Source of the DNA: Marinilabiliales bacterium | Lineage (GTDB): Bacteria; Bacteroidota; Bacteroidia; Bacteroidales; ML635J-15 | NCBI GenBank assembly: GCA_002869385.1 | Contig: PKTB01000004.1 | Span: 373,770-437,769 of the forward strand | Direction of reading: 5' to 3' | DNA: 64,000 nt | In this document: in pieces, positions 9,380 through 17,431 of the stretch | Layout: each line of letters opens with the position of its first letter | How positions within the stretch are numbered: the stretch's first letter is position 1 | The notes under the pieces: generated by a model | Told to the model about the DNA's origin: nothing | What the model saw: the letters and a program-made list of their open reading frames with translations, nothing else | Databases searched by the model: none | Program-made: the position numbers and the translations under genes

Positions 9380-12300
9380 ATGGATCCTAAAAAGACATTA
9401 AAGAAAATACTGGCTGAAAATAAAGAACGCCTTAAAGAATTGATGTGTATAAATAAGACGACAGCAATAATAAAAGAGAATAAATCCATTGAAGAAACAC
9501 TAAAACATATTGCTCTTATATTACCAAACGCTTGGCAATATCCAGAAAATACTTTTGCGAAAATTGAATATAAAGAACAGAAATTTCTATCAACCAATTT
9601 TGTTGAATCAGAATGGGAAATAAGTAAAACCTTTGTTAGTATTGATGGAGAAGAAGGCAAGATATCTGTATATTATAATAAGAAGTTTCCCAAGTCAGAT
9701 GAGGGACCATTTTTGAAAGAGGAGAGAGATCTTATTAATAATTTGTCGAATATTATTTCGGGTTATTTAAATAGTCATATTGCCCAAACCGTATTTAAAG
9801 ATAAAATAAAGAAACCGCAGTCAGATATTAATTTTCTCGAGAATATAAAAGCTGACCATCAGCTAATGGCAAAATTTATTTCTCAACATAATTCAGACAG
9901 GGATATTTATCATGACCTAATGCCTTTTAAAGTAAAGGAAATACTTATTGTTGCAAATTTATATGATGCCTATATTATCGAGAAAGAAGGACGTTTTACA
10001 GAATATATTTTAGGAGAATATCATCACTTAAACCTAACTTCTACACCACGTATTACTGGGGTTTCTAATGACAAGGAAGCAATTGAGCACTTAAAAAATA
10101 AGCATTATGATTTGGTTATATTAATGATGGGTATCGATAAGAAAACACCAATAGAATTAAGTCGTCAAATAAAATCAATGTTTTCGTATATACCTGTTTA
10201 TCTTTTGTTAAATAATAATCAGGATATAGCAAATTTTAAGAGCAATCCGGATCTATTAAGAAATGTTGACAAACAATTTGTTTGGAATGGTGACTCTAAA
10301 GTTTTCTTTACTATGATGAAACATTTGGAAGATCAGGTTAATGCTGAAAATGACACATCAATTGGTATGGTTAGAGTAATTCTATTAGTTGAAGACTCTG
10401 CAAAGTATTATTCCCGTTATCTTCCATTACTATATCAGGTTATTCTTAAACAAACTAAGGATTTAATTGAAGAAACAAATGTTGATGAACTTTATAAAAT
10501 TTTGAAGTTACGTGCTCGTCCAAAAATACTTCTTGCACAAACATTTGAAGAAGCGATAGTTATTTATGAAAAGTTAAAAGATTATCTTCTTTGTGTTATT
10601 TCAGATGTTTCATATCCAAAAGCGGGAAATTGTTGCGATGATGCAGGTCTCGAGCTCATTTCCTATATAAAAAGTGATTACCCGGATTTGCCTGTAGTTT
10701 TACAATCATCAGAAGCTGAAAATGCAAAGAAAGCTTATGCATTAAATGCGAGTTTTATCAATAAAAATTCAGAAACACTTTCACATGATATTAAAAGTTT
10801 TATCAGACATTTTCTTGGTTTTGGAAATTTTGTTTATCGTGATAGAAGCGGACGACAAATCGTAATTGCAAAGTCACTAAAAGAGTTTGAAAAAAACTTA
10901 GAAGTAATTCCGGAAGAGTCATTATTATACCATGGTCAAAGAAATCACTTTTCTTTATGGTTAATGGCTAGAGGTGAAATTCAAATTGCAAAGAATATTT
11001 CATCAGTAAAGACAAGTGATTTTAAAAACGTTGAAGATCTGCGAAAATTTCTTATTCAAACGATAAATAAACATCGAAACGAGCAGAACAAAGGTAAGGT
11101 TGTTCAATTTGAAGAACAAGCAATAAATGATGAAAAGAATATTGTTAGTCTGTCAGCTGGAGCTCTTGGCGGTAAAGGTAGAGGCATTGCTTTTATAAAT
11201 ACTTTGATACACTATTTTGAATTGTCAAAGCAATTTCCTGATATAAATATCACTACTCCAAAAACATCAATTATTGGTAGTGATGAATTTGATTATTTTA
11301 TTGAGCGCAATAAGCTTCAGGATGTTATTTTTGAGGAATCAGATTATGAAGAGTTAAAGAAAATATTTATAAAATCTCAACTTTCAACTGGCTTGAAAAA
11401 GCGTATGAAGGTTCTTTTGAATAATATTACAAAACCTATTGCAATTCGAAGTTCCAGTTTGTTCGAAGATTCTTTAATGCAGCCATTTTCAGGAATTTTT
11501 GCCACATATATTTTACCGAATAATCATCCTGATATAAACGTTAGACTTGAACAAGCTATGACAGCAATAAAGTTAGTTTATGCATCAATATATTCTGATA
11601 GTGCAAGAACTTATTTTGAAGCTGTTAACTATAAGATTGAAGAGGAAAAAATGGCCATCGTAATTCAGGAAGTTGTTGGTAATCAATATGAAAACTCTTT
11701 TTATCCACATATAAGTGGTACAGCACAATCTCACAATTATTACCCTGTTGCACATATGAAACCGGATGAGGGCTTTGCAGTCTTGGCAGTTGGTTTAGGA
11801 ACTTATGTTGTTGAAGGTGAGAAGACTTTTAGATTTTCACCAAAATATCCTCAAATAGAAATAAATTCCCAGAAGGATATTTATAAAACATCACAGGTAG
11901 ATTTTTATGCGGTTAACCTGGAAAACAAAGAGCCGAATTTAATAGAAGGTGAAGATGCTGGATTGGTAAAACTTGAGATTACAGATGCAAAAAATCACGG
12001 AACAATAAAACACTCTGCATCAGTATATGATTTTGATAATGAAAGAATTGTTCCTGGAATAGATACTTATGGCCCTCTTGTAATAAATTTTGCTAATATT
12101 TTAAGGTATGATTATATTCCTCTCTCTGAAACAATCACCCAGTTGTTAGATATTATCAGGGAAGCAATGGGCTCTCCGGTAGAAATTGAATATGCTATTG
12201 ACCTTAATAAAGATAAGGACTCAAGTGCATCGTTTTACTTGCTTCAGATTAAACCATTAGTTGGTAATGATGATGATTTTAATATTGATCTTGACAGTCT

Positions 12301-12820
12301 TGATTACAACGATGTATTATTGTTTTCAGAAAAAAGTATGGGGAATGGTTCTATAGATGAAATAACAGACCTGATTTATATCGACCCAGATAGTTTTGAT
12401 AATACTAAAACTTTGGAAATCGCAAAGGAAGTAGAAGAATTGAACTCTCAATTAATGAAGGAAAAACGTAAATATGTATTAATGGGTCCGGGAAGGTGGG
12501 GTACCAGAGACCAATTTATTGGAATTCCGGTTGTGTGGCCGCAAATATGTAATGCTAAAGTTATAGTTGAAATGAGCTTAAAGAATTTTCCTTTAGATGC
12601 TTCTTTAGGATCACACTTTTTTCATAATGTTACCAGTATGAATGTCGGGTATTTTACCGTTCAACATAGCGCTTCTAATGATTTTATTAAATGGGACTTA
12701 ATTCACGGGCAAGAACTTATACAAAAGAAAAAATTTGCTAAACATGTCAGATTTAAAAAACCACTGACAATTGTAATGGATGGAAAAAAGCGAATTTCAG
12801 TAATTACAGTAAATGATTAG
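9380..12820 (+). CDS. Large receiver-like plus PEP/pyruvate-binding (PPDK_N-type ATP-grasp) protein
   Basis: GAF-like N-terminus; a receiver-like segment without acceptor Asp (DLVILMMGID); a second receiver-like segment (ILLVEDSAKYYS...VISDVSYPKAG); GALGGKGRGIAF; IAIRSSSLFEDSLMQPFSGIFATY; C-terminal YVLMGPGRWGTRD...GSHFFHNVTSMNVGYFTV. Confidence 0.75.
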   Translation: MDPKKTLKKILAENKERLKELMCINKTTAIIKENKSIEETLKHIALILPNAWQYPENTFAKIEYKEQKFLSTNFVESEWEISKTFVSIDGEEGKISVYYNKKFPKSDEGPFLKEERDLINNLSNIISGYLNSHIAQTVFKDKIKKPQSDINFLENIKADHQLMAKFISQHNSDRDIYHDLMPFKVKEILIVANLYDAYIIEKEGRFTEYILGEYHHLNLTSTPRITGVSNDKEAIEHLKNKHYDLVILMMGIDKKTPIELSRQIKSMFSYIPVYLLLNNNQDIANFKSNPDLLRNVDKQFVWNGDSKVFFTMMKHLEDQVNAENDTSIGMVRVILLVEDSAKYYSRYLPLLYQVILKQTKDLIEETNVDELYKILKLRARPKILLAQTFEEAIVIYEKLKDYLLCVISDVSYPKAGNCCDDAGLELISYIKSDYPDLPVVLQSSEAENAKKAYALNASFINKNSETLSHDIKSFIRHFLGFGNFVYRDRSGRQIVIAKSLKEFEKNLEVIPEESLLYHGQRNHFSLWLMARGEIQIAKNISSVKTSDFKNVEDLRKFLIQTINKHRNEQNKGKVVQFEEQAINDEKNIVSLSAGALGGKGRGIAFINTLIHYFELSKQFPDINITTPKTSIIGSDEFDYFIERNKLQDVIFEESDYEELKKIFIKSQLSTGLKKRMKVLLNNITKPIAIRSSSLFEDSLMQPFSGIFATYILPNNHPDINVRLEQAMTAIKLVYASIYSDSARTYFEAVNYKIEEEKMAIVIQEVVGNQYENSFYPHISGTAQSHNYYPVAHMKPDEGFAVLAVGLGTYVVEGEKTFRFSPKYPQIEINSQKDIYKTSQVDFYAVNLENKEPNLIEGEDAGLVKLEITDAKNHGTIKHSASVYDFDNERIVPGIDTYGPLVINFANILRYDYIPLSETITQLLDIIREAMGSPVEIEYAIDLNKDKDSSASFYLLQIKPLVGNDDDFNIDLDSLDYNDVLLFSEKSMGNGSIDEITDLIYIDPDSFDNTKTLEIAKEVEELNSQLMKEKRKYVLMGPGRWGTRDQFIGIPVVWPQICNAKVIVEMSLKNFPLDASLGSHFFHNVTSMNVGYFTVQHSASNDFIKWDLIHGQELIQKKKFAKHVRFKKPLTIVMDGKKRISVITVND

Positions 12821-13598
12821 TATGAACGAAAAGGAACAACTGACAGAAAGAAAAAAAGAACTTAATTGTATTTATCGTATTGATAAATTAGTTGAGGAAG
12901 ACCTTGATGTACAGACCTTTTTAATGGCAACAACAGGGATTATTGCCGATGGGTTTCAGTATCCATGTTATATATCTGTTTTTATTGAGTTAGAAGATAT
13001 CATTATTCGTTCTACATATTATAGAGAAGGTAGAAATTTTTTGATTTCGGAATTGAAAAATAAAAATAAAGTTCTGGGAAAAATATGTGTATTTTACTCT
13101 GATAAGTTAGAACAGAACAATCCATTTCTTGAAGAAGAACAACATCTTCTCGATTAAGTTAGCAAGAGAGTTTCGGATTATTTGTTAATTGATAAGATTG
13201 AAAATGCAATTAAAGAAACGTCTGTATCAAGGTATGTTGAAACCAGACAGAAGATATTAAGTAATGCGGTTATGTCTGCAAACTTTCCAGACCTTGGATT
13301 ATATAGTATTTATGTAATTGGTAGCGTTAAAGAGCATACTTCAGGTATTTCGAGTGACATTGATCTGATTTTGTATTATAATGGCAGCAAAGAATCAATG
13401 AAATTGATTAAGTTGTGGTTCGAGGCCTGGAGTGAGTCAGTATTAAAGAGTGATAAATATACTGAAGAAATTTCTGGATTGGACAATCTGTTCGATTTGC
13501 ACTTTATTACAGATATAGATATTGAGAAAAAAACCAGTTATGCAGTTATGATAAATGCTTTACATAACAGAGCTAAACTAATTAAAACAATACTTTGA
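12813..13598 (+). pseudogene. GAF-like sensor fused to nucleotidyltransferase domain; in-frame TAA (13155-13157)
   Basis: N-terminal half resembles the N-terminus of the 9380..12820 product. After TAA the frame reads VSKRVSDYLLIDKI..., with the NTase motif IYVIGSVKEHTSGISSDIDLILYYNG and FDLHFITDID. Start overlaps the upstream gene by 8 bp. Confidence 0.7.
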
Positions 13599-13599
13599 A

Positions 13600-14445
13600 A
13601 TGAAAGCATTTTTTGTAAGCGATCTGCATGGTAAAGAATCCAGATATAGAAAACTATGTGAAAGAATAAAAGCGGATAAGCCAGAAGTAGTTTTTTTTGG
13701 AGGAGATTTATATCCTTCTTTTAAAGACATGATTAAGTCTGAGCAAAGCTTTTTTGATGATATATTTCTTACATATTTTAAAAATCTAAAAGTTGAATTA
13801 AAGGAAGATTATCCTAAGATGTTTATTATTTTAGGCAATGATGACCCAAAACTTGAGGAAGATAGGTTTTTTGATAAGAAATACACAGAATATTGGAGCT
13901 ATATTAATAATCAAAAAGTAAAGTTTAAAGATTGGAATATATTTGGATATGCATTTGTTCCACCGACACCGTTTTTAAATAAGGATTGGGAGGTTTATGA
14001 TGTTTCCAGATATGTTGACCCCGGATGTATTCATCCAACAGAGGGTAAAAGAACAGTTGACCCCGGCAGGGATATTGAATATAGCACTATTAAAAAGGAT
14101 ATTGAAAAACTTACTGAAGGATTTAAACCTGAAAAGTCATTATTTTTATTTCATTCTCCGCCATATCAAACAAATTTAGATAGAGCTGCTCTTGATAATA
14201 TGTATTTTGATCATGTTCCTCTAGATGTGCATGTTGGTAGCATTGCAATTAAAGAGTTTATTGAACAAAAACAACCTTTTATAACTATGCATGGCCATAT
14301 ACACGAATCTTCGAGAATTACCGGTGAGTGGAAACAAATATTTGGAAAAACAGTAAGTTTTAATGCGGCAATAGATTCAAATAAATTATCAATTATTATT
14401 TTTGACCTTAAAAATACAAATAATGCAAGACGGGAAATATTATAA
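13600..14445 (+). CDS. Calcineurin-like metallophosphoesterase
   Basis: FFVSDLHGKES, VFFGGDLYPS, IILGNDDP, LFHSPPY, ITMHGHIHES motifs. Confidence 0.85.
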   Translation: MKAFFVSDLHGKESRYRKLCERIKADKPEVVFFGGDLYPSFKDMIKSEQSFFDDIFLTYFKNLKVELKEDYPKMFIILGNDDPKLEEDRFFDKKYTEYWSYINNQKVKFKDWNIFGYAFVPPTPFLNKDWEVYDVSRYVDPGCIHPTEGKRTVDPGRDIEYSTIKKDIEKLTEGFKPEKSLFLFHSPPYQTNLDRAALDNMYFDHVPLDVHVGSIAIKEFIEQKQPFITMHGHIHESSRITGEWKQIFGKTVSFNAAIDSNKLSIIIFDLKNTNNARREIL

Positions 14446-14479
14446 CTTGAATTAAATAAATTTAAATGAAGCAGATAGT

Positions 14480-17431
14480 GTGGAATTTTCAGAACTGGAT
14501 TTTCAGGATACTGAGTTTGATCAGTTAATGAAAAAAAGGATACTTAAGGTTTTATTAATATGTAATAATTATGATAATTTCATGCTTGAAGAGGACGGAC
14601 GTATTGATGAGCAAATCTTCAATGAATATATGACTCTGGGGCTTCGTTATCCTCCAATGTTTATTCGTGTTGATTCTCCTGAAAAAGCATTTGAAAAGCT
14701 AAAAAATAAAGACATAGACCTTGTCATTACGATGCTTAATATTAGTAATGAGAATGCATTTGATTTGTCAAAAAAGATAAAAAACAGATATAAAAAGGTC
14801 CCAATTGTTATTTTGACACCATTTTCAAGAGAGATTACTCAAAAAATTGAAAAAGAAGATTTAAGTGCTATTGATTATGTGTTTTGCTGGTTAGGTAATC
14901 CAGATATTATGTTGGCAATTATTAAACTTATTGAAGATAAAATGAATGCCAAACATGATGTTCTTGAGATGGGAGTTCAGTCTGTTATTCTTGTTGAAGA
15001 TAGTATTCGTTATTATTCAAGTATTTTACCAATTCTTTATAAGATTTTCTTTATCCAGTCTCAAAGAGCTTCAATTGAGGGTGCAAACGAACATCAACAA
15101 AACCTTCGTATGAGAGGACGCCCGAAAATTATGCTTGCTACTAATTATGACGAAGCATTGGATTTGTTCAAGACATATAGAAAAAATGTATTGGGTGTTT
15201 TTTCAGATGTTAGGTATAAAATTAAAAATAGTGTAGATAAAGAAGCAGGCTTAAAACTTTGTAAAACTATTAAGAAAATAGATCAAAATGTTCCTTTATT
15301 GCTTCTTTCGTAAGAAAGCCATAACAAGGCTTTGGCAAAAAATATAGGAGTAGATTTTTTAGGAAAATACACAAAGAACTTCTCATTTGAACTAAGAAAC
15401 TTTATTATAAAAAACCTGCATTTGGGAAGTTTTCATTTTTACTGTACGAAACAAGCAAAAGTAACTTGTACTGCTACCAGTTTAAAGTCTTTTCAGGAAT
15501 TGATATTAAAGGTGTCTCCTGAATGTATTGAGTATCATGTGTCAAAGAACCATATAACTAAATGGTTGAATTCTAGATCGCTATTTTTACTTGCCAGAAA
15601 GTTTAAGCATCTTACTGTTGAACATTTTGATAGCATTGAAGACATAAGGGAGTTTATTTATATGGCAATATCAAATTACCGTCTTAATAGTGGTAGGGGG
15701 GTGATTACCAAGTTTGAGCAGAATACTTTTGACTCCTACTCTATATTTTCCAGAATTGGAGATGGATATATTGGCGGTAAAGCACGTGGTTTGGCTTTTA
15801 CAGATTTATTAATAAAGAAACATAAACTTCGCAATAAATATAAGGGTGTAACTATTACTATTCCTCGTACAGCAATACTTTGCACAGATGTTTTTGATGA
15901 GTTTATGGAAACAAATAACCTTTATGAGATTGGCATTTCAAATAGAAGTGATGAGGAGATTTTGAGTAAATTTGTCGAGGCAAGATTACCAAACAGGATT
16001 TTTACAAGTTTATATTCATTTATCTCATACACCAATAATCCAATAGCAATACGCTCCTCTAGTCGACTTGAAGACTCACACTATCAGCCATTTGCAGGAG
16101 TTTATTCTACATATATGATTCCCAATATTGTCAGCGATAAACATTTGACAATTAAAATGCTTACCGAAGCAATAAAAAGTGTTTATGCTTCTGTTTTTTA
16201 CCGTGATTCCAAAGCATATATGACAGCAACCTCAAATGTTATAGATGAGGAAAAAATGGGAGTTGTTTTACAAGACGTATGTGGTACAACATATAAAAAC
16301 AGGTTTTATCCTACATTTTCGGGTGTAGCGCGCTCGATTAACTTTTACCCGATAGAGCCCGAAAAAGCAGATGATGGTATTGTAAATGTTGCTTTGGGAC
16401 TTGGAAAACATATTGTGGATGGTTGCAAAAGCATGAGGTTTTCACCAAGATATCCTGCAAAAGCCTTGCAATTATCTACACCTGAATTAACACTTAGAGA
16501 CACTCAAAAATTCTTTTATGCATTGGATCTTGACCCCACCAAATTTGTTCCCTCAATTAGTGAGGATGTAAATATTATTCAGCTTAGAGTTAATCATGCG
16601 CACGACGATAATGCACTTAGGCATATTGGGTCAACATATGATTTTCAAAATAATATGATTAAAGACAGTGTTATGTATGATGGCAAAAAGCTAGTTACAT
16701 TTGCTAATATACTTAGAAACAACTATTTTCCTTTGAGCAAGATTTTAATGGATTTTATGGAGATAGGAAAGCAAGAGATGAATAATCATATTGAAGTTGA
16801 ATTTGCAGTTAATTTTCCACCTAAAGGTAGTTCAGAAGATATAATATTTAGTCTGTTACAAATACGTCCGATTATTGAAACTGATCAGGATGTTAGTATT
16901 GATATAGATGAAATTGACGTGAAAGAATCTATTTTGTATTCGGAGTCGGTTTTGGGTAATGGGATCTACAATGATATTTGTGATATTATTTATGTGAAAA
17001 CTGGCAATTTTAATTCTCTCAATAATCATAAAATTGTTGAAAAAATTGATAATCTTAATAAGGAGTTTATTGAAAATGATAAAAACTATGTTCTTATTGG
17101 TCCCGGAAGGTGGGGTTCGTCTGATCCTGCATTAGGAATTCCGGTTAAATGGTCTAATATTTCAGGAGTTAGAATAATTGTTGAATCCGGATTGGAAAAC
17201 TATCGTATCGATCCAAGTCAGGGAACCCATTTCTTTCATAATCTGACATCTTTTAGAGTTGGGTATTTTACAGTTAACCCGTTTATTAAAGATGGTTATT
17301 ATGATGTTTGTTTTCTTGATAAAATGGATTGTGTTTACGAAGATGAGTTTATTCGCCATGTACAATTTGATAAGGAATTAGTAATAGAGATTGATGGAAA
17401 GAGCAGTAAAGGTGTTGTTTATAAGCCTTAG
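14480..17431 (+). pseudogene. Second receiver-like plus PPDK_N-type ATP-grasp protein (paralog of 9380..12820); in-frame TAA (15311-15313)
   Basis: ORFs 14480..15313 and 15332..17431 share a frame. They align along their length to 9380..12820 (VILVEDSIRYYSSILP, GRPKIMLATNYDEA, IGGKARGLAFTDLL, IAIRSSSRLEDSHYQPFAGVYSTY, YVLIGPGRWGSSD, GTHFFHNLTSFRVGYFTV). The stop aligns with the second Ser of QSSEAEN in the paralog. Confidence 0.8.

Follow-up and report, generated by a model that had tools for sequence, protein, structure and literature searches.

Tandem-receiver ATP-grasp proteins linked to glutamate dehydrogenase genes in Bacteroidales and beyond

Two receiver-ATP-grasp paralogues within a four-gene locus

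The stretch of DNA analysed here (the window) comprises 64,000 nucleotides of contig PKTB01000004.1 (positions 373,770 to 437,769) from a Marinilabiliales bacterium (assembly GCA_002869385.1), and carries four gene spans on the plus strand, at 9380-12820, 12813-13598, 13600-14445 and 14480-17431. The outer two encode large proteins, A and B, in which response-regulator receivers are joined to a PPDK_N-type ATP-grasp domain, and the inner two encode a nucleotidyltransferase (N) and a metallophosphoesterase (M). Open reading frame (ORF) calling bore out these spans, which were first proposed in an original prediction made from the window's sequence, along with their spacing (an 8-bp overlap, then gaps of 1 and 34 bp), and every motif quoted there was found. 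The proposed gene count holds for the spans but not for uninterrupted ORFs; an in-frame TAA splits both N and B, such that six ORFs are called mechanically. The grouping is far beyond chance, since these genes are found side by side in further genomes. Here we describe A and B as members of a protein family whose genes are linked to those of glutamate dehydrogenase (GDH).

Protein A (9380-12820; 1146 aa) comprises a GAF-like N-terminus, two receivers (REC1 and REC2), a DUF5752 domain, the PPDK_N ATP-grasp domain and a C-terminal domain bearing the GPGRWG and HFFHN motifs, as delineated by ORF calling, Pfam, AF2 modeling and Foldseek. The GAF-like region (about residues 8-141; 9401-9802) resembles the N-terminus of N in tblastn (~30% identity), so the shared N-terminus that had been predicted stands; 'GAF-like' is used here as a description, as Pfam calls no GAF there. 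REC1 (9932-10288) is degenerate in the alignment of relatives, with Met249 at the acceptor position. As anticipated, this receiver lacks the acceptor Asp; Met occupies the position in 60/67 relatives and Asp in none tallied or displayed. REC2 (10370-10816), also in line with the prediction, keeps its acceptor (Asp409 in 65/67 relatives) within a complete acidic site, the remaining residues of which are similarly conserved (E338 in 67/67, D339 in 60/67, S443 in 66/67 and K462 in 65/67). It therefore possesses the acceptor Asp, acidic pair, Ser/Thr and Lys by which response-regulator receivers are recognized. Pfam adds DUF5752 (residues 497-577; 10868-11110; PF19027, 27.7 bits against a cut-off of 23) between REC2 and the ATP-grasp domain (residues 595-962; 11162-12265), the latter matching PPDK_N at E 4.9e-37 and structure 5hv3 at a Foldseek E of 1e-11. 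The C-terminal domain (residues 963-1146; 12266-12817) is defined by its AF2 model and conservation.

Protein B (14480-17431) is a paralogue of A with 34% identity, and by ORF calling and Pfam it follows the order REC1-REC2-(DUF5752)-PPDK_N-C-terminal domain, without the GAF-like part of A. Its GTG start is uncertain, and the in-frame TAA lies at 15311-15313. Across the locus, Pfam matches comprise PPDK_N (E 5e-37 and 1e-32 in A and B), Response_reg, Metallophos and NTP_transf_2.

Conservation is concentrated in the ATP-grasp and C-terminal domains. Among the 67 relatives, drawn from many phyla, the ATP-grasp residues K599, R601, R690, E696 and E756 are invariant, while E935, E937 and Q956 are present in 66/66 readable rows. 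PF01326 (PPDK_N) is found in all 40 family members examined with Pfam, with the Lys, Arg, Glu and Gln of the ATP site retained. Moreover, the C-terminal domain shows no variation at R1039, W1040, H1079 and N1083 in the 67 relatives. As the prediction had noted for the window proteins, the swivelling phosphohistidine domain (PF00391, TxGGxxxH) and the phosphoenolpyruvate (PEP) TIM barrel (PF02896) are absent, here from all 40 members (0/40), and on this domain content A and B cannot be ordinary PEP synthases. Nor are the missing domains encoded elsewhere; the single PF00391 of the genome sits far from the window in a 447-aa open frame, which is most likely the genome's PPDK and not a short stand-alone protein. 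A PEP synthase with split domains was thereby ruled out.

The full-length AF2 model of A (pLDDT 84.6) is matched by Foldseek to rifampin phosphotransferase (RPH), PPDK and the receivers of PleD, with RPH as its best PDB fold match. A and B nonetheless score 16-18 bits against the NCBIfam RPH family, the cut-off of which is 999, and, with PF00391 absent as well, they do not show the RIF-binding and C-terminal His domains of that enzyme. RPH, PEP synthase and PPDK share with A and B the ATP-grasp fold and ATP-site residues, whereas A and B lack the swivelling phosphohistidine domain and the substrate domain of those enzymes, and instead feature two preceding receivers and a C-terminal domain without a PDB fold match. 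When modeled in isolation, the C-terminal domain of A is predicted with confidence (pLDDT 92.4, pTM 0.90), but the PDB yields neither a fold match (Foldseek, E<=0.001) nor a sequence relative. A phosphohistidine domain concealed within this module was considered and is unsupported, as the best Foldseek match has an E of 0.011 and a TM of 0.22 and no PPDK-type domain is among the best. A phosphoacceptor role for the invariant H1079 is possible.

Tandem receivers of which one is degenerate are also known from PleD and PorX, and the receivers of A match PleD at a Foldseek E of 3e-8. The phosphorylated receiver of PleD is the first, whereas the acceptor of A and B lies in the second, and the PPDK_N and C-terminal domains of A and B occupy the place of the enzymatic GGDEF or PglZ outputs of PleD and PorX. 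The building blocks of A and B are known, while their combination and the tie to GDH are undescribed as far as we have searched. Some A proteins (in loci L060, L061 and L046, and on contig G095:C70) feature two to four tandem GAF-like units at the N-terminus and reach about 1400-1570 aa, which suggests a variable sensory input. In a Riflebacteria metagenome-assembled genome (MAG; L115 8974-14467), one A relative is directly followed by a second, shorter one of 783 aa.

Distribution of the family and its linkage to glutamate dehydrogenase

The family was surveyed in 98 Bacteroidales genomes, about one per family and nearly all from different families. A or B is present in 86/98, GDH in 91/98, and both together in 83/98. 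Relatives of A and/or B were likewise found in 44/61 related genomes, where the B orthologues are intact. A scan of the wider collection detected at least 593 relatives of A/B, the best 80 loci of which were analysed. Among these 80, the family extends beyond Bacteroidota to Acidobacteriota, Spirochaetota, Cloacimonadota, Desulfobacterota, Gemmatimonadota, Myxococcota and one archaeal MAG, although such phylum assignments can be affected by misbinning of MAG contigs. One contig titled as an Alphaproteobacteria MAG (L079; SACF01000021.1) carries a Bacteroidales-type A gene, placed within Bacteroidales in the A/B tree, and is probably misbinned. In public databases B is annotated as a 'PEP/pyruvate-binding domain-containing protein'. 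In keeping with the proposal that the system is uncharacterised, no published function for the family was found in the openly licensed literature, where searches for 'reversible inactivation', gdhX, BT1970-BT1973 and the domain names returned no paper on it.

Of the 83 Bacteroidales genomes holding both, 31 encode a GDH domain no more than 5 kb from A/B, where about 0.7 would be expected by chance when genomes of 3.5 Mb are assumed. Clustering of the neighboring proteins of the best 80 loci ranks GDH first (31/80 versus 0.75 expected), followed by a KorAB-type 2-oxoacid:ferredoxin oxidoreductase (13/80). The linkage is also seen in the non-Bacteroidota loci, 9/27 of which contain GDH (0.22 expected), in eight cases only 9-215 bp from A/B. 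In the fetched loci, 52 of 68 GDH ORFs are immediate neighbors of A/B, in several different orientations; these loci were mostly picked for holding A/B, so the count describes arrangement and not frequency. As the orientations vary, one frozen operon is no explanation for this proximity. For example, gdhA is divergent from B in Parabacteroides distasonis and Phocaeicola massiliensis. Further neighbors comprise glutamate-synthase-like genes, NuoE/NuoF-type electron-transfer genes and a GAF-CRP regulator. No histidine kinase was recognized as a conserved neighbor in the neighborhoods viewed, though these were not searched systematically for one.

The GAF-CRP/FNR-type regulator, the GAF-like part of which resembles that of A and N, adjoins GDH or B in several families (L159 4500-6848; L038 14041-15174; L165, L174 and L175), and may serve the same nitrogen/redox circuit as its transcription factor. 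In the window genome, genes for NuoE, NuoF and a 1223-aa glutamate-synthase-like/NuoG-FdhA fusion come after one GDH gene (L158 4081-11539; G000:C2, about 84080-91540), apparently encoding a soluble NAD(P)H-linked complex.

The two paralogues are associated with different GDHs. In the GDH tree, the neighbors of clade I (GDH-I) comprise 19 B and no A proteins, while those of clade II (GDH-II) comprise 28 A, one B and one case of both. This association has a Fisher p of about 2e-12, the significance of which is overstated since the rows are related; when labels were shuffled on the GDH tree, 0/500 shuffles required as few changes. Viewed from the A/B tree, Bacteroidota B proteins occur with GDH-I in 19 cases and GDH-II in two, and A proteins with GDH-II only. 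The complete order GDH-II, A, N, M, B, GDH-I is seen in L092/L169. In locus L161, the GDHs of which group with those of Phocaeicola, NCBIfam names the clade-II enzyme as NADP-specific GDH (PRK14031) and the clade-I enzyme as PRK14030. Here, B lies directly downstream of the NADP-GDH gene in convergent orientation, and one larger, oligopeptidase-like gene separates it from the second GDH.

A proposed role in GDH control and its alternatives

In our judgement, A and B are fairly likely to be receiver-controlled ATP-grasp proteins dedicated to GDH, with A serving the NADP-specific GDH-II and B serving GDH-I. A receiver-controlled phosphotransfer output, as originally predicted, remains the natural reading of their domains. 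The signal would enter by phosphorylation of the REC2 aspartate, perhaps with a small molecule on the GAF-like part as a second input in A. REC2 would then switch the PPDK_N domain, which would use ATP and most likely pass a phosphoryl, pyrophosphoryl or adenylyl group to the C-terminal domain (H1079) or straight to the paired enzyme. Since there is no swivelling His domain, the acceptor would have to be H1079, a small molecule or a second protein, for instance GDH. The outcome would be a GDH activity adjusted, at the 2-oxoglutarate node, to the cell's nitrogen and redox state; the KorAB-type neighbors, members of an enzyme class that makes 2-oxoglutarate, and the electron-transfer neighbors suggest that the regulated point would therefore be the 2-oxoglutarate/glutamate node. 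In the window genome, A and B would act on GDH in trans, the GDH genes being on another contig (C2). The effect on GDH activity, its direction, its chemistry and the input kinase are all what we infer from domain content and gene linkage.

Bacteroides GDH activity reportedly depends on trans-acting gene(s) downstream of gdhA, as the title of a 1996 paper by Baggio and Morrison has it, and the B. fragilis enzyme is reported to be reversibly inactivated in vivo. A stronger form of the proposal, offered only tentatively, is that a receiver-driven ATP-grasp protein covalently switches its dedicated GDH via H1079 in Bacteroidota and at least six other phyla, and that it is the missing trans-acting GDH factor of Bacteroides.

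Several points weigh against a dedicated role in GDH control. Linkage alone cannot separate control of enzyme activity from simple co-regulation. In the window genome itself, A/B lie far from the GDH genes on contig C2. More broadly, A/B and GDH are unlinked at a 5-kb limit in 52/83 of the genomes that encode both, though many assemblies are fragmented, and the two do not always co-occur, with A/B lacking a GDH match in 3/98 genomes and GDH lacking A/B in 8/98. The one-to-one rule also has two exceptions, as B adjoins GDH-II in L161 and L084. In the A/B tree, moreover, each side includes non-Bacteroidota members near GDH-II, and the pairing rule is therefore limited to Bacteroidota. Finally, A/B are candidates for the 1996 trans-acting gene(s), and the L161 arrangement is suggestive only of B being among them.

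Control of GDH by a dedicated protein has a counterpart elsewhere. GarA is small, carries an FHA domain and is switched by a Ser/Thr kinase. A and B, by comparison, are large receiver-ATP-grasp proteins; no sequence relation to GarA was found, and no FHA domain was matched by Pfam in the window proteins or the 40 family members. The GarA system of Actinobacteria confers signal-dependent control on GDH and 2-oxoglutarate-consuming enzymes (PMC5448819). The role proposed for A/B, on the basis of gene linkage and pairing, is like that of GarA/OdhI-PknG. GDH is a main ammonia-assimilation route in gut Bacteroidota, and these data provide a candidate family, an assignment of each paralogue to its GDH and residues of interest (D409, K599 and H1079). 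If the proposal is true, a receiver-ATP-grasp route would join PII, GlnE and GarA in bacterial control of the 2-oxoglutarate/glutamate node, and would account for the very widespread 'PEP/pyruvate-binding domain-containing protein', at present named after its domain alone.

A different possibility, which we hold to be unlikely but worth weighing, is that A and B are themselves metabolic enzymes, namely receiver-controlled ATP-dependent synthetases or kinases whose small-molecule substrate lies near glutamate, 2-oxoglutarate or ferredoxin metabolism, and that their genes adjoin GDH as members of one pathway. Most PPDK_N proteins act enzymatically on small molecules (PEP synthase, PPDK, RPH and the PigC/RedH ligases), the ATP site of A/B is fully conserved, the C-terminal domain could bind an acceptor, and the neighbors include metabolic genes besides GDH. 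Tandem receivers would however be unusual in a pathway enzyme, the swivelling His domain that the listed PPDK_N enzymes need is missing, and the paralogue-specific pairing with two GDH clades suggests a partner protein and not a shared substrate.

The original prediction had treated the four genes as one unit, a view under which A, N, M and B would form a single nucleotidylation/phosphotransfer module, with N writing and M erasing a mark on A or B. N (12813-13598; ORF calling and Pfam NTP_transf_2) joins a GAF-like part to a minimal nucleotidyltransferase (GS..SDIDL) and contains the in-frame TAA at 13155-13157, while M (13600-14445; PF00149, E 2.9e-8) is a calcineurin-like metallophosphoesterase of 281 aa. 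The order A-N-M-B is found in the window, L034, L038 and L092/L169 and, by coordinates, in G063, and N and M keep together at other loci too. In the Bacteroidales census, though, M occurs in only 13/98 genomes and a full nucleotidyltransferase in 11/98 (adjoining in most), compared with 86/98 for A/B, and A and B flank N-M in three (the window genome, G111 and G063). Co-conservation of the quartet thus largely fails, N-M being present in about a tenth of genomes, and we consider the single module improbable. Given its rarity, N-M at most modulates the A/B-GDH system in some lineages; it may be an optional addition outside the core, providing a nucleotidylation step in those lineages. N shares its GS..SDIDL core with MntA-type (HEPN-MNT) nucleotidyltransferases, but differs in its fused GAF-like part, the lack of a HEPN partner and the phosphoesterase that follows. 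Its identity as a Type VII HEPN-MNT (MntA) antitoxin was rejected, as it scores 14.1 bits against an NCBIfam cut-off of 60 and its neighbor is a metallophosphoesterase. PADLOC returned weak, candidate-class matches for N and M only, and no defence-system match for A or B.

Co-regulation without mutual action, whereby A/B and GDH both respond to nitrogen or redox state (e.g. via the GAF-CRP regulator), appears quite improbable. The occurrence of that regulator, with its GAF-like part related to A and N, beside GDH or B in several loci speaks for it, as does the common intergenic region of about 140-360 bp between divergent A/GDH-II pairs. Nevertheless, the linkage holds across orientations and phyla, and shared regulation alone does not require each paralogue to reside with its own GDH clade. 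The reading of A and B as ordinary PEP synthases with the missing domains encoded elsewhere, which the PPDK_N domain and the database name might imply, has a negligible chance of being correct, as it is already refuted by their domain content (0/40 PF00391/PF02896).

In-frame stops in the window genome

The stops in N and B are not isolated, as stops in frame also interrupt the nearby corA and both GDH genes of the window genome. They were located at 13155, 15311, 8623 and 20323 of the window, and in the GDH genes at L158 4939 and 4951 and L159 6779. Intact relatives are known for every stop-bearing gene, N being intact in L034, L038 and L169. Programmed read-through or stop reassignment was ruled out, given the varied residues replaced (Ser, Glu and Gly), the intact relatives, the involvement of GDH and corA, and the one-step nature of the changes; translation with Table 4 still does not join the frames of N and B. 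The stops look like an error or damage signature of this assembly, which is 93% complete with 6.8% contamination, and not like regulated read-through. Wherever the ancestral residue is readable, a single G>T or C>A substitution accounts for the stop (Glu GAA to TAA, Gly GGA to TGA, Ser TCA to TAA), a pattern like that of 8-oxoguanine damage or a mutY/mutM-type mutator. Relatives feature Ser at the position of the stop in B, and one affected GDH codon is that of the Glu following CATQN.

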